From contig NC_092676.1 of the NCBI RefSeq assembly GCF_964355755.1, positions 6,492,288-6,556,287 on the forward strand: a stretch of DNA of 64,000 nucleotides, given 5' to 3'. The translations under genes were made by a program, and so were the position numbers. Shown in pieces: positions 40,710-46,227 of the stretch. Numbering within the stretch: the first letter of the stretch is position 1; every line of letters starts with the position of its first letter. The notes under the pieces were generated by a model. It did no database searches. It was not told the origin of the DNA and was given only the letters and a program-made list of their open reading frames with translations. The stretch comes from Antedon mediterranea (Eukaryota; Echinodermata; Crinoidea; Comatulida; Antedonidae).

Positions 40710-43700
40710 ATGGAGCAGAAAGGCACAGCCGAGAGAACTTCCCCGGGGAGGAAGAGAGTAGGGTGCTACATACTTGGAGATACAATTGGCGAAGGGTCGT
40801 TTGCAAAGGTTAGAGTTGGTACCCATATTGTGGCGCAGGAAAGGGTATGTTATGAAGTTTCTACTGACTTATTTTTATTTATGCAGTGGTATTGATATTT
40901 TAGTAAATACAATTTTAAACGTCGACATGTACTAAAATAGTACCAGCGTGTTAGACTTAGAGGCGTGGAATGCCCTATTCTCCTCATCGAAAAGAATAGA
41001 TTAGTTCATACCATACTCGAATTTCGTATTAGTATCAGTAAAAATGTAACGAAATAATGTAATTCCAGTCGTATTATAGTGAGTACTGTTTTAGGCCTAT
41101 TCGAAATGTCAATATGTATTACGGTACATTTACTATCAGTATTATTATTATTTGCTGCACCCACAGTTGAGTAGTTCTTGCAGGCGCAGCATACATTTTA
41201 TTTGTACTTTCATTCAGCTGTAAAAGCTACTTGGCAGACCTACTCTTTCTACCCTTTTCAGTCTGTAAGAATGGAAGAATGTCGCACCCTTTCTTTCGTT
41301 TATCAACAACAAAAGCACACGACACGATTCGTTTCCCAATGTTTTTATAACCATCTTGTTCTTAATCATGTAACTCTTATAGGCCTAGGCCTAACAGTCA
41401 TCATGTCTGATCGATAATAATTATTATGTCATTCTTAGAAGTGTTACACGACAGGTGCTCATTCGCATCCAAAATTCATAATATTATATTAATACGGTCT
41501 CTGTTTATTAACCAAGCAGCAGCCTAAGTCCATTGCAAATTGAATTTGAAAATGCAACATTACCTTGTTATTGCATGTCAAGATTATCTTTATTGATTAA
41601 TAATAAAGATTTTGTCCTTCAGCGGACTTTGACACATTTACATTATGCTGTTTCAGGTATTACATTATTCACTAATGTTTAAATATCTGAACCTTCTGAA
41701 TATTTTTTAAACCTCGAATCAGTGGAGTAACATAGAGACTTTGTATGATTTAGGAACCCTACGTGGCCCTCCAAGCCTTGAGGCCTGTTTCGACATAATA
41801 ATGGTAATGCCTGGAACCCCATAAATTCAAGGGCCTCTGGGTTTAGCCAGTGAGCGCTCATAGCCGTTACGGCACTGCCTCAAATCCCCGTCTATTTGAA
41901 ACCCTGGATACGATGTTAGAATTGCGACGATTATTGCACGAGTTCGAAGTACCCTGGTTTCTACGCTTTGGGTTACCCTACACGGCCTAATAAATTAATG
42001 GTTAATTCGGTTAAAATATTATAATTAAATTGTAGATTAATTTACTATTATGATTAGTATAGTTAGTGTGAATTAAAATAAATTCGTATAGCACGTAAAC
42101 CAGTGGAGTGAATTATGTACGTATCAAAAACTGTCCCTTTCAAAGATGTCGATTTGATCATCATTTTAAATCTAAATAATGATTCAATCTCACAAGGATA
42201 ATCAATAGACAATGAATACCAGTAATTATTATACATATTCAATTGCGTGCCAATATATCGACTTAGTAATAGTAAACAAATATCGCGTTGTTGTTTATGA
42301 TAACACCATTTCTTGATCTTGACATTTGATGAAGAAAAGGATGCAAGTCGGTGACCCTTAAAGTTTGGTTCACAATAGAGACACAACACATAGATGTAGA
42401 CATACGCATTGCGAGTTGACCAATGACAAGCGACAGTTCGAATAATCTATCGCTTTTGATTATTCATCAGTTTTTGTTTTGCATATTCATTTTCTATGGG
42501 TTGCGATCAAAATCATCGATAAACGTTTAATTGCCAATCGTGATTACGTCAAAAAGAATTTACGTCGTGAAGCTGATATGATGCGTAAACTTAATCACGC
42601 AAACATCAGCAAACTGTATGAAGTGCTTGAAACGCAGAATAACTACTACCTCGTAATGGAACTTGCCGAAGGAGGAGAGTTTATGCGGTATCTATGCGAC
42701 AGACGGAGACTTTCTGAGCGAGAAACACGAAGGTTTATGCGGCAGTTGGTTTCGGCAGTTGAATATATGCATCAGGAAGAATTGGTTCACAGGTAGGGCC
42801 TACGGAAGTTTGCTATAGTAGTAAAAAAGTCATCAAGCTAGAGGCCACAATGCATCATTAAGCGCGAAACACACGTGATTTGATCAATCTGTCACAATTG
42901 GTCAACTCTCTTGCGTTGCGTCTACGTCCTTGAGTTGGGTCCTAGTAGGGAACCAAGCTTAACGGAGATATGTAAAGTTGAAGATGTCTATATTTTACGA
43001 CTACAACCATTTTCCAAGATAATTATCCATGTTACCCGGATATCCTCCATACTGTACCTTACTTAGGCCTAAGTGTTACGTCGATGTTAATTCCTAAATA
43101 CTTTGCCATATACAAACAATACAAACATTCTTTCTTTCTTTTTCTTTACAACAGGGATATTAAAATTGAAAATTTTCTGTTGGATTCAAACAATGATTTA
43201 AAAGTAATCGGTGAGTACAAAACGAAGAAAGTTTATAATTGTTTAATCTTCTGAACTTCCTAAATTTGCAAGCGAACGTAGGGAAGTTTTGAAACATAAT
43301 GAAGACATATAAAAGAAAGAAAAAAAAGAAATACTTTGTTTGAACATTTTGTCAGTTTCATAGCAATAAAGTATGTCCTATTAAACACAAGACACACCAA
43401 TCGGATAACCGTTGATTTATCTTTTCTTTCATTCGTCAGACTTCGGGCTAAGCAATGTGCTGGGACCAGACGGATTTCTTAGAACACAGTGCGGTTCCCC
43501 AGCGTACGCTGCTCCAGAAATATTTTCTAGTACAGGTTATGGAACAGCGGTAGATGCATGGAGCATGTAAGTAGAAAGAAATGATTTAACTTGATTATGA
43601 CGAGTTGCCAAATCTTACGAATAATAGTAATCAGTAATCAATAATTAAACTTCGACAAACAATCAAACAACAATAATAGACGTTTTGTGCCAAAAATTTT

Positions 43701-46227
43701 CCGCCGGTTAGGCTTACCATGTCAGAAATAAAGCAAGAACATACAAACCAAATTGATCAATTAAAAAAAAAAGCTTCATCAATTTTCAAATTTTCACATT
43801 TTAGCACATTATACTTCGAGTTCATCATTTTTTTTCTCCCCCCCCCCCCCCAATTCAATTTTTTCAAAGGGTCTTACGAATACAGAAAATATTTCTCTGT
43901 AATGTAAATATTATAATATTGCTGAATAAATGAATGGATGAATGAGTTGGAATACATATTTGTGCTCGTTGTTTTAAATGCAAGATGTTTACCTTTTTTC
44001 AGAGGGGTTAATATGTTTGCAATGTTAACGGGTGAACTTCCGTTTAATGTCGACCCGCCTAACAACATGTGCAAACTGCATGCTAAAATAATAGAAGGTT
44101 GTGTCTTCCCAGACTTCCTTACCAAAGGTAAGACTCTAATCACTTAAGTATGGCCATTTCATGAAACATTGAATAGTAAAGCTGGTGGTTAAAGTTGCTC
44201 TTGTATGCCTAAGTAACTTGATTCAAGTCTCAAGAAAGATCATCTTTTCCTTTCTTAATTCATCTTCTTATTACGCATACACTATCGCATGATTTCTGTT
44301 TATATCAATGTAGAAGTTTATAAAAGCTTTTAATTAATAACAGCGTGCACGGTTACCAATAGCTTACAAAATAATTACAGTGGTTAAGAGTAACAACATA
44401 GGGAGTAATTTTAACATGAAAAAACGCAATAACGCTTATTCGTAAGATTTGGCAACTCGTCATAATCAAGTTAAATCATTTCTTTCTAATTCCAGATTGC
44501 AAGGATTTATTAAGCCGTTTATTAACAGTTGATGAAACATCTCGTATTAAACTGAGTGAAGTTTTAAAACACTCCTGGATGAATCGCGGGCACTCCAAAC
44601 GATTGATGGCGTGCTCTTATGATAACCTCATTGCAGACAATCTGAATATGGATGCTATAAGTTATATGTCAGAACTCGGTTACTCCGCCAAAGAAGTTAT
44701 TGAAAATGTGTTACAAAATAGACCAGTTCCAGCAAATGCTGTTTACCATCTTTTGGTTAGAAGACTTGAAAAAGGATGTGGTTTCCCCGATGAAGTCATG
44801 GCGCATGTTCAAAGTGATGTTGATAGAGAAGGTGCCATCACTGACATGAGCTATAGATCTACTAAACATCCAGATAACGCGATGATAAAAGATACAAGTT
44901 TAGAATCAACAATCGGAAATAAAAATAACAGTAGGCCTATAACATGCGGAAGGAGTTATATTATTGACACTCCAACCGAAAGTGGAGCAAGTCAAACACA
45001 GCATCACAATGGAAGAACATCAAAACTAAAACCATCGCAAGATGACGTTGATCATATTTCCGATAGTCTGAAAGAAATTGATCTGAAGAATAACGAAATT
45101 AATTGTTTTAATAATATGATTAGTAGAAATCAAGAAAACAAAACTGACAAATTAAGATCAGTCATAAAAACACAGACATTAAGAAAAAAGTATGATCATT
45201 CCTCATTAACTTGTGCACAAACTCAACAAAGACAATTGTCGGCTATAAAAGAATATAAAGTTCAGTCTGGGACTGCAGAAATATCAGAAACGTTTACAGA
45301 ATCAAAGAAACATCAGACTAGAACACCATCAGATTCATTTCTTCAGAAAACATACAAGGCCGTACGACCTCCTCTTCGGCGGTCAATCTCTCATACTTTA
45401 GGCTGTAACATTGCCGTGCAACCCCATCAAAACGATAACTGTTGTGTTAACAACGGTAGGATAGTAGTAGGCCTAGAGAGTGTTACCAATCATCGTAAAT
45501 GTAGGCCTACGCAATGCAAAAAGAGAGCAGAAACAGTTCCTTCAAAAGATTCATTTAACAGAGCAATTCCAAAAGAGCGGCTGCGTCGCTCAAACACTGA
45601 TCCTTCCATCTACAGTTTTCCACAAAGACCACGTCATCAAGAATATCTAGCAGAGCCGTCCTACGTTCATAGAAGTAAGTCCATTATTAGTTAAAATACA
45701 TAAAATTCTCATTGTTCATAATATGCACCCAGCAAAATACAAAATATCTCCTATAGGCCTTCATCATACGCAGAAAATGGTCCAGAAATTACAGAAGAAA
45801 ACGGGAAATGGTTTGGTTCAAGAATATAAAAAAATAATCATTTTTTTCTGAAGCTCAAGAGATTATCTATAGATATAATATTTTGTTTTCAAATAGCTTT
45901 TTTTATCCTTACTCAAAGTAAGTTATTAATTACATTTTAAATGATATTTTTCACTGTCTTACAGAAGAATTGTCAGTTCAGAAACTCGACATTTGTAGCC
46001 AAAATCCACAGCCGTCTTCGAGGACGATTTCCGGTGCTCTGTTTGGATTCCCGACAAGACTTCGATCTTCTAGTCGAAAGTTGATGAAGCAGAAACGTAC
46101 TCAAGAACACGGTTTAAGCCGCACTACCAACATGCAAAGTGCGACTAAATACATCGGGAGTAGGCCTAGACGAGAAGATACAACTGGGTTACCTAGTTTA
46201 AAACATAAAGATACAGATTTTCGCTAA
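40710..46227 (+). CDS. HUNK: HUNK-like AMPK-related Ser/Thr kinase, seven coding exons
   Basis: Exons: 40710-40844, 42500-42792, 43155-43210, 43440-43566, 44003-44127, 44496-45674, 45965-46227; the join is exactly 726 codons (725 aa, human HUNK about 714). Kinase domain about 20-273: GEGSFAKV loop at 27-34, VAIK lysine K49, helix-C E69, HRDIKIEN at 142-149 (catalytic D144), DFG at 162-164, activation loop [14 protein letters not shown] with T177 at the LKB1-site position, then [14 protein letters not shown] as in HUNK. A UBA-like segment at about 296-338 ([20 protein letters not shown]) follows, as in AMPK-related kinases. The remainder is low-complexity. All splice sites are GT/AG except the exon 2 acceptor, which reads TATGG/GTTGCG. 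The start is the first in-frame ATG after the start-stop element. Confidence 0.9.
42359..42460. mobile_element. MITE family A, left portion, before kinase exon 2
   Basis: It starts AAGTTTGGTTCACAATAGAG and runs past the palindrome centre (GACCAATGACAAGCGA, AATAATCTATCGCTTTTGAT), then stops abruptly 39 bp before exon 2. The missing right arm is found after the exon at 42892. Confidence 0.75.
42892..42961. mobile_element. MITE family A, right portion, after kinase exon 2
   Basis: It begins in mid-element (CACAATTGGTCAACTCTCTT) and continues GCGTTGCGTCTACGTCC to CCTAGTAGGGAACCAAGCTT, the right terminus of family A. It supplies just the part missing from the left portion. Confidence 0.75.
43572..43624 (+). 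repeat. Left arm of perfect 53-bp inverted repeat (kinase intron 4)
   Basis: It starts TAGAAAGAAATGATTTAACT five bases after the end of exon 4 (after GTAAG) and ends CAAATCTTACGAATAA. It is the exact reverse complement of 44436-44488. Confidence 0.97.
44436..44488 (-). repeat. Right arm of perfect 53-bp inverted repeat (kinase intron 5)
   Basis: It starts TTATTCGTAAGATTTGGCAA and ends AAATCATTTCTTTCTA, seven bases before exon 6. It includes most of the pyrimidine-rich stretch before the acceptor. All 53 bases pair with 43572-43624. Confidence 0.97.

Follow-up and report, generated by a model that had tools for sequence, protein, structure and literature searches.

The kinase gene and its inverted repeat

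The window analyzed here, a stretch of 64,000 nucleotides, contains a protein kinase gene on the forward strand. With exon boundaries set by the open frame and GT/AG sites, the segments 42501-42792, 43155-43210, 43440-43566, 44003-44127, 44496-45674 and 45965-46227 join into an uninterrupted frame of 679 residues. The spliced product matches the Pfam Pkinase profile with 215 bits, its best relatives of solved structure are the MARK, SIK and AMPK kinases, and the kinase is intact and CAMK-like (MARK/AMPK/HUNK-type). We take the protein to be most like HUNK (for example, in the segment WSIGVNM.AMLTG), an assignment that serves as a lead only. A probable first coding exon lies at about 40711-40846, with an ATG at 40711, a glycine loop and then a GTATGT donor. 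At exon 2, the frame-consistent boundary (42490-42500) has no AG acceptor; the intron ends in ...TTTTCTATGG and the exon starts with GTTGCGATCAAA, while splicing at the closest AG upstream, at about 42470, would disrupt the frame. One possibility is that the reference carries an erroneous or variant base here; another is that the 3′ splice site is non-canonical. Elsewhere in the window are three tRNA-Leu (TAA) genes in tandem with 159-nt spacing (52118-52518) and, on the reverse strand, an open frame of 389 amino acids (10400-11569) with weak matches to trypsin-like peptidases.

Exon 5 of the kinase gene is enclosed by two inverted arms, one in each flanking intron. The features of this part of the gene are as follows.

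43440-43566, + strand: exon 4, 127 nt, ending ...DAWSI, with donor GTAAGT
43567-44002, + strand: intron 4, 436 nt, containing the left arm and an unrelated dispersed repeat
43572-43624, + strand: left arm, intron 4 positions +6 to +58, exact reverse complement of the right arm
44003-44127, + strand: exon 5, 125 nt, a conserved segment of the kinase catalytic domain ending FLTK
44128-44495, + strand: intron 5, 368 nt, containing the right arm
44436-44488, - strand: right arm, intron 5 positions -60 to -8, in the branch-point/pyrimidine-tract region of the exon 6 acceptor
44496-45674, + strand: exon 6, 1179 nt

Direct reverse-complement comparison of the arms, which are separated by 811 nt, gave 53 matches in 53 positions and no mismatches. 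Thus, the exact 53-bp repeat reported in the preliminary description is confirmed, and the open frame and GT/AG boundaries likewise bear out its placement: the left arm follows exon 4 after 5 nt (GTAAG), and the right arm stops 7 nt (ATTCCAG) short of exon 6. Beyond the 53-nt core, identity ends abruptly on both sides; an ungapped extension by a repeat finder reached 81 nt at 85%, with perfect matching confined to the inner 53 nt. From base composition, ∼7e-22 perfect 53-nt complements with a gap below 3 kb are expected in 64 kb, and the longest perfect complement among 200 Markov-resampled intron 4/intron 5 pairs was 13 nt, which excludes chance. In the remaining adjacent intron pairs of the kinase gene, the longest complements are 10-12 nt. 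The inverted repeat is thus real in the assembly and is not a chance feature. A search of the arms for Rfam families returned none. The dispersed repeat in intron 4 (about 43853-43954, just after a run of C) has at least 19 further genomic matches at 73-90% identity and shares the 11-mer TCTTACGAATA with the arm.

The protein segment encoded by exon 5 is collinear with MARK3, indicating that the exon is old. When exon 5 is removed, the Pkinase match shrinks to profile positions 28-183 of 263. The earlier statements that its length is not a multiple of three and that its loss leads to an early stop both proved correct: skipping of the 125 nt gives 11 out-of-frame codons and then a TGA at 44530-44532 in exon 6, ∼1.1 kb upstream of the last junction. 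By the usual rule, a frameshift stop in this position is eligible for nonsense-mediated decay (NMD).

The predicted stem and splicing of exon 5

In the pre-mRNA, the arms could pair into a long, mismatch-free helix whose loop contains exon 5. The arm duplex has a predicted energy of −82.1 kcal/mol, and in the predicted fold of the 981-nt region the stem has a mean pairing probability of 0.99. When pairs may span no more than 700 nt, so that the stem cannot form, the best fold is less stable by 60.5 kcal/mol. The z-score of the fold relative to 20 shuffles is −7.0. Specifically, the branch-point and pyrimidine-tract region of exon 6 (-60 to -8) is predicted to be 0.99 paired and the exon 4 donor to be about half accessible. 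The anatomy of the arms and exon together with this fold agrees with the proposal that exon 5 sits in the loop of a stem, and the predicted pairing agrees with the proposal that the exon 6 pyrimidine tract is buried in it. Two features of the gene bear on when such a stem could exist. Its formation is possible only once the right arm has been transcribed, about 430-490 nt past the exon 5 acceptor, and the left arm lies in intron 4, so that splicing of intron 4 dissolves the stem.

A stem of this predicted stability could disturb splicing. We consider the likeliest consequence to be a modest and mostly passive cost, in the form of some slowed use of the exon 6 acceptor, some skipping or some circular exon 5. 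Co-transcriptional splicing of intron 4, ahead of or during stem formation, would keep this cost down.

A more elaborate reading, which we regard as doubtful, is that the stem is a selected RNA switch that loops out exon 5 and, through regulated skipping (with frameshift and NMD) or a circular exon 5, tunes the level of the kinase. The predicted energy, pairing and z-score given above are in its favor, as are the abutment of both arms on splice sites and the NMD-eligible stop produced by skipping. In addition, human exons looped out by conserved complementary regions are less included, and more so when the pairing is more stable (PMC8052449). However, joining exon 4 to exon 6 needs the exon 6 acceptor, which the stem itself would bury, and the stem is lost after intron 4 splicing; the off-switch logic is therefore weaker than the preliminary description claimed. 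Moreover, conserved exon-looping structures are depleted in human genes (PMC8052449), which suggests that such loop-outs are usually harmful, and the human data fit a selected switch no better than a tolerated burden. With regard to a circular product, shorter exons, in fission yeast at least, tend less to circularize, and the process requires more than inverted repeats (PMC4479058). A regulatory role and a circular exon 5 RNA are each no more than possible. That one replication error made, in finished form, a strong splice-control hairpin looping out an essential kinase exon, a hairpin then kept in the lineage as a regulated off switch acting through skipping and NMD or through circular exon 5, we judge quite unlikely. 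The preliminary description had also raised inversion of the exon in DNA; the assembly contains no sign of this, exon 5 being normally oriented with its reading frame and splice sites intact.

Two known systems resemble the arrangement. Similar to the exon loop-outs formed by pairs of conserved complementary regions (PCCRs, PMC8052449), the gene has complementary boxes in both introns flanking exon 5, which lie near splice sites and are very stable in prediction. That class is defined by conservation, whereas the present case is known from one genome, and here the downstream box covers the pyrimidine tract. Exons that yield circular RNAs between inverted Alu pairs likewise have inverted complements in their flanking introns that bring the exon ends closer. 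In contrast to these, the repeat described here, known from DNA alone, does not belong to a dispersed family, and its exon is short (125 nt).

Origin of the repeat

A BLAST search (E ≤ 10) of the 354-Mb genome with an arm and its flanks (74 nt) matched the two arms only, and the 22-nt arm core, allowing up to 3 mismatches, also had just 2 occurrences in the 354 Mb, again the two arms. These whole-arm and core searches rule out a dispersed repeat as the origin of the arms. For calibration, the same search was run with three other inverted repeats, drawn from 10-kb stretches picked arbitrarily, and returned 42, 41 and 50 genomic matches, indicating that a dispersed element would have been detected by the arm search. 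A survey of perfect inverted repeats longer than 40 nt covered 234 kb of sampled sequence; the others it contained were a block at 16.6-17.8 kb of the window, a dispersed element in the sampled stretch L030 and, in L037, repeated sequence of the CTAAGACC type. Because the other surveyed and calibration repeats are dispersed or repetitive, the repeat in the kinase gene stands out as single-copy. The window block (16592-17796) is a large inverted array built of CCAAAATACGTCAA-type repeats; it includes two perfectly matched 97-nt arms separated by 985 nt. The element in L030 (positions 329-664 of that sampled genomic stretch) is a foldback element with terminal arms of about 112 nt and about 40 genomic matches, many of them 97-99% identical, and probably represents a recently active MITE-like family.

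Our main reading, to which we give a probability of roughly 0.6, is that the repeat is a private, single-locus inverted duplication made by template switching and tolerated at a modest, mostly passive cost to splicing; of the possible origins of the repeat, a template switch is the most likely. In a single event, a short-range template switch during replication would have used the 3′ end of intron 5 as template and placed an inverted 53-nt copy at the beginning of intron 4, immediately past the donor, and the duplication would have been tolerated because the donor and acceptor bases themselves were spared. Template switching produces perfect reverse-complement repeats in one event, and homogenization between arms can keep stems perfect (PMC8794818, PMC7954356, PMC8604942). 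Two hallmarks of the process are present in the kinase gene, namely a perfect reverse-complement copy of nearby sequence with abrupt ends and a local origin of that sequence outside any dispersed family, and the coding frame around the repeat is intact. Compared with template-switch mutations as described by the four-point model (Loytynoja and Goldman; Walker et al. 2021; Monttinen and Loytynoja 2022), the likeness lies in a perfect, local and unique copy at a single locus, of a kind that could yield a perfect stem in one event. The present case differs in that it is known from one genome and has 811 nt between its arms, a gap at or beyond the upper end of the short-range class ("tens to hundreds of nucleotides").

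The right arm is probably the source and the left arm the derived copy. The pyrimidine tract in the right arm has 14 pyrimidines in 18 positions, a level met by 2.6% of the 18-mers in the window, and it would take luck for a copy of whatever sequence happened to begin an intron to provide so functional-looking an exon 6 acceptor. Conversely, the left arm is plausible as a copy because the start of an intron beyond +6 is under little constraint. A duplicated gene or second haplotype displaying the ancestral state was sought in the genome, and none was found. The 11-mer common to the arm and the dispersed repeat of intron 4 was considered as a microhomology that guided the switch and proved compatible with chance.

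With 0 differences in 53 positions, arm divergence above ∼5.6% (3/53) is excluded at 95%, and the origin or last homogenization of the arms was therefore fairly recent. Thus, where the preliminary description took perfect identity to imply recent origin or selection, the first part stands, but selection is not required, since a single template switch yields arms that are perfect at birth and homogenization can maintain them (PMC8794818, PMC8604942). The position of the arms is less easily accommodated. If placement within the introns were random, the chance of both arms lying within 7 nt of exons 4 and 6, so near the exon 4 donor and exon 6 acceptor, is ∼4e-4, a post hoc figure that counts against a template switch as the whole account. 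This closeness could hint at a reason related to splicing; it is partly explained, however, by selection, which would remove arms reaching into the donor or acceptor.

There is a slim chance that one arm is an assembly or sequencing artefact, arising from a read that was chimeric or inverted. Chimeras of palindromic form are a recognized artefact, the arms are perfectly identical, and the non-AG acceptor preceding exon 2 in the reference makes local base errors conceivable. However, just 53 nt are copied, the sequence between and around the arms is unique, and the splice sites and frame beside both arms are intact; scaffolds of 22-41 Mb, which suggest a long-read assembly, also argue against such an error. 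It is very improbable that an older, imperfect inverted repeat was perfected by recent homogenization of its arms (quasipalindrome correction). This process is documented in yeast (PMC8604942), and the somewhat raised match in the flanks of the core (81 nt at 85%) would be consistent with it, but the 81-nt extension was picked by the algorithm and the flanks drop abruptly, and the search in yeast covered spacers up to 70 bp (PMC8604942), compared with 811 nt here.

Least probable is a transposable element with the arms as its terminal inverted repeats, or a pair of opposed copies of a small element: the arms resemble MITE and foldback transposons in being perfect inverted arms with TA at both outer ends, and the other perfect inverted repeats tested in the genome were sequences of dispersed repeat families, but the two arms have no further copy in the 354 Mb, which makes a transposon or MITE origin unlikely, and the space between them holds a conserved host exon. 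TA is the target duplication of Tc1/mariner-type elements, and an examination of the repeat for a TIR/MITE target-site duplication found only this ambiguous TA. A mobile unit of 917 nt, spanning the whole interval, is ruled out as well, as its interior is the conserved exon 5, continuous with kinase homologues, and not inserted sequence.

A predicted long helix around an exon

The inverted repeat in the kinase gene adds a well-placed example to a known class of mutation, and the case is striking yet single and functionally unproven. If the template-switch reading is true, the gene provides a clean natural example of one mutation placing a long perfect RNA helix around an exon, and it could be asked whether splicing ignores, suffers from or has co-opted newborn stems of this type. 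A functional stem, for its part, would represent a regulatory RNA structure born in one step and not by the gradual acquisition of pairing.
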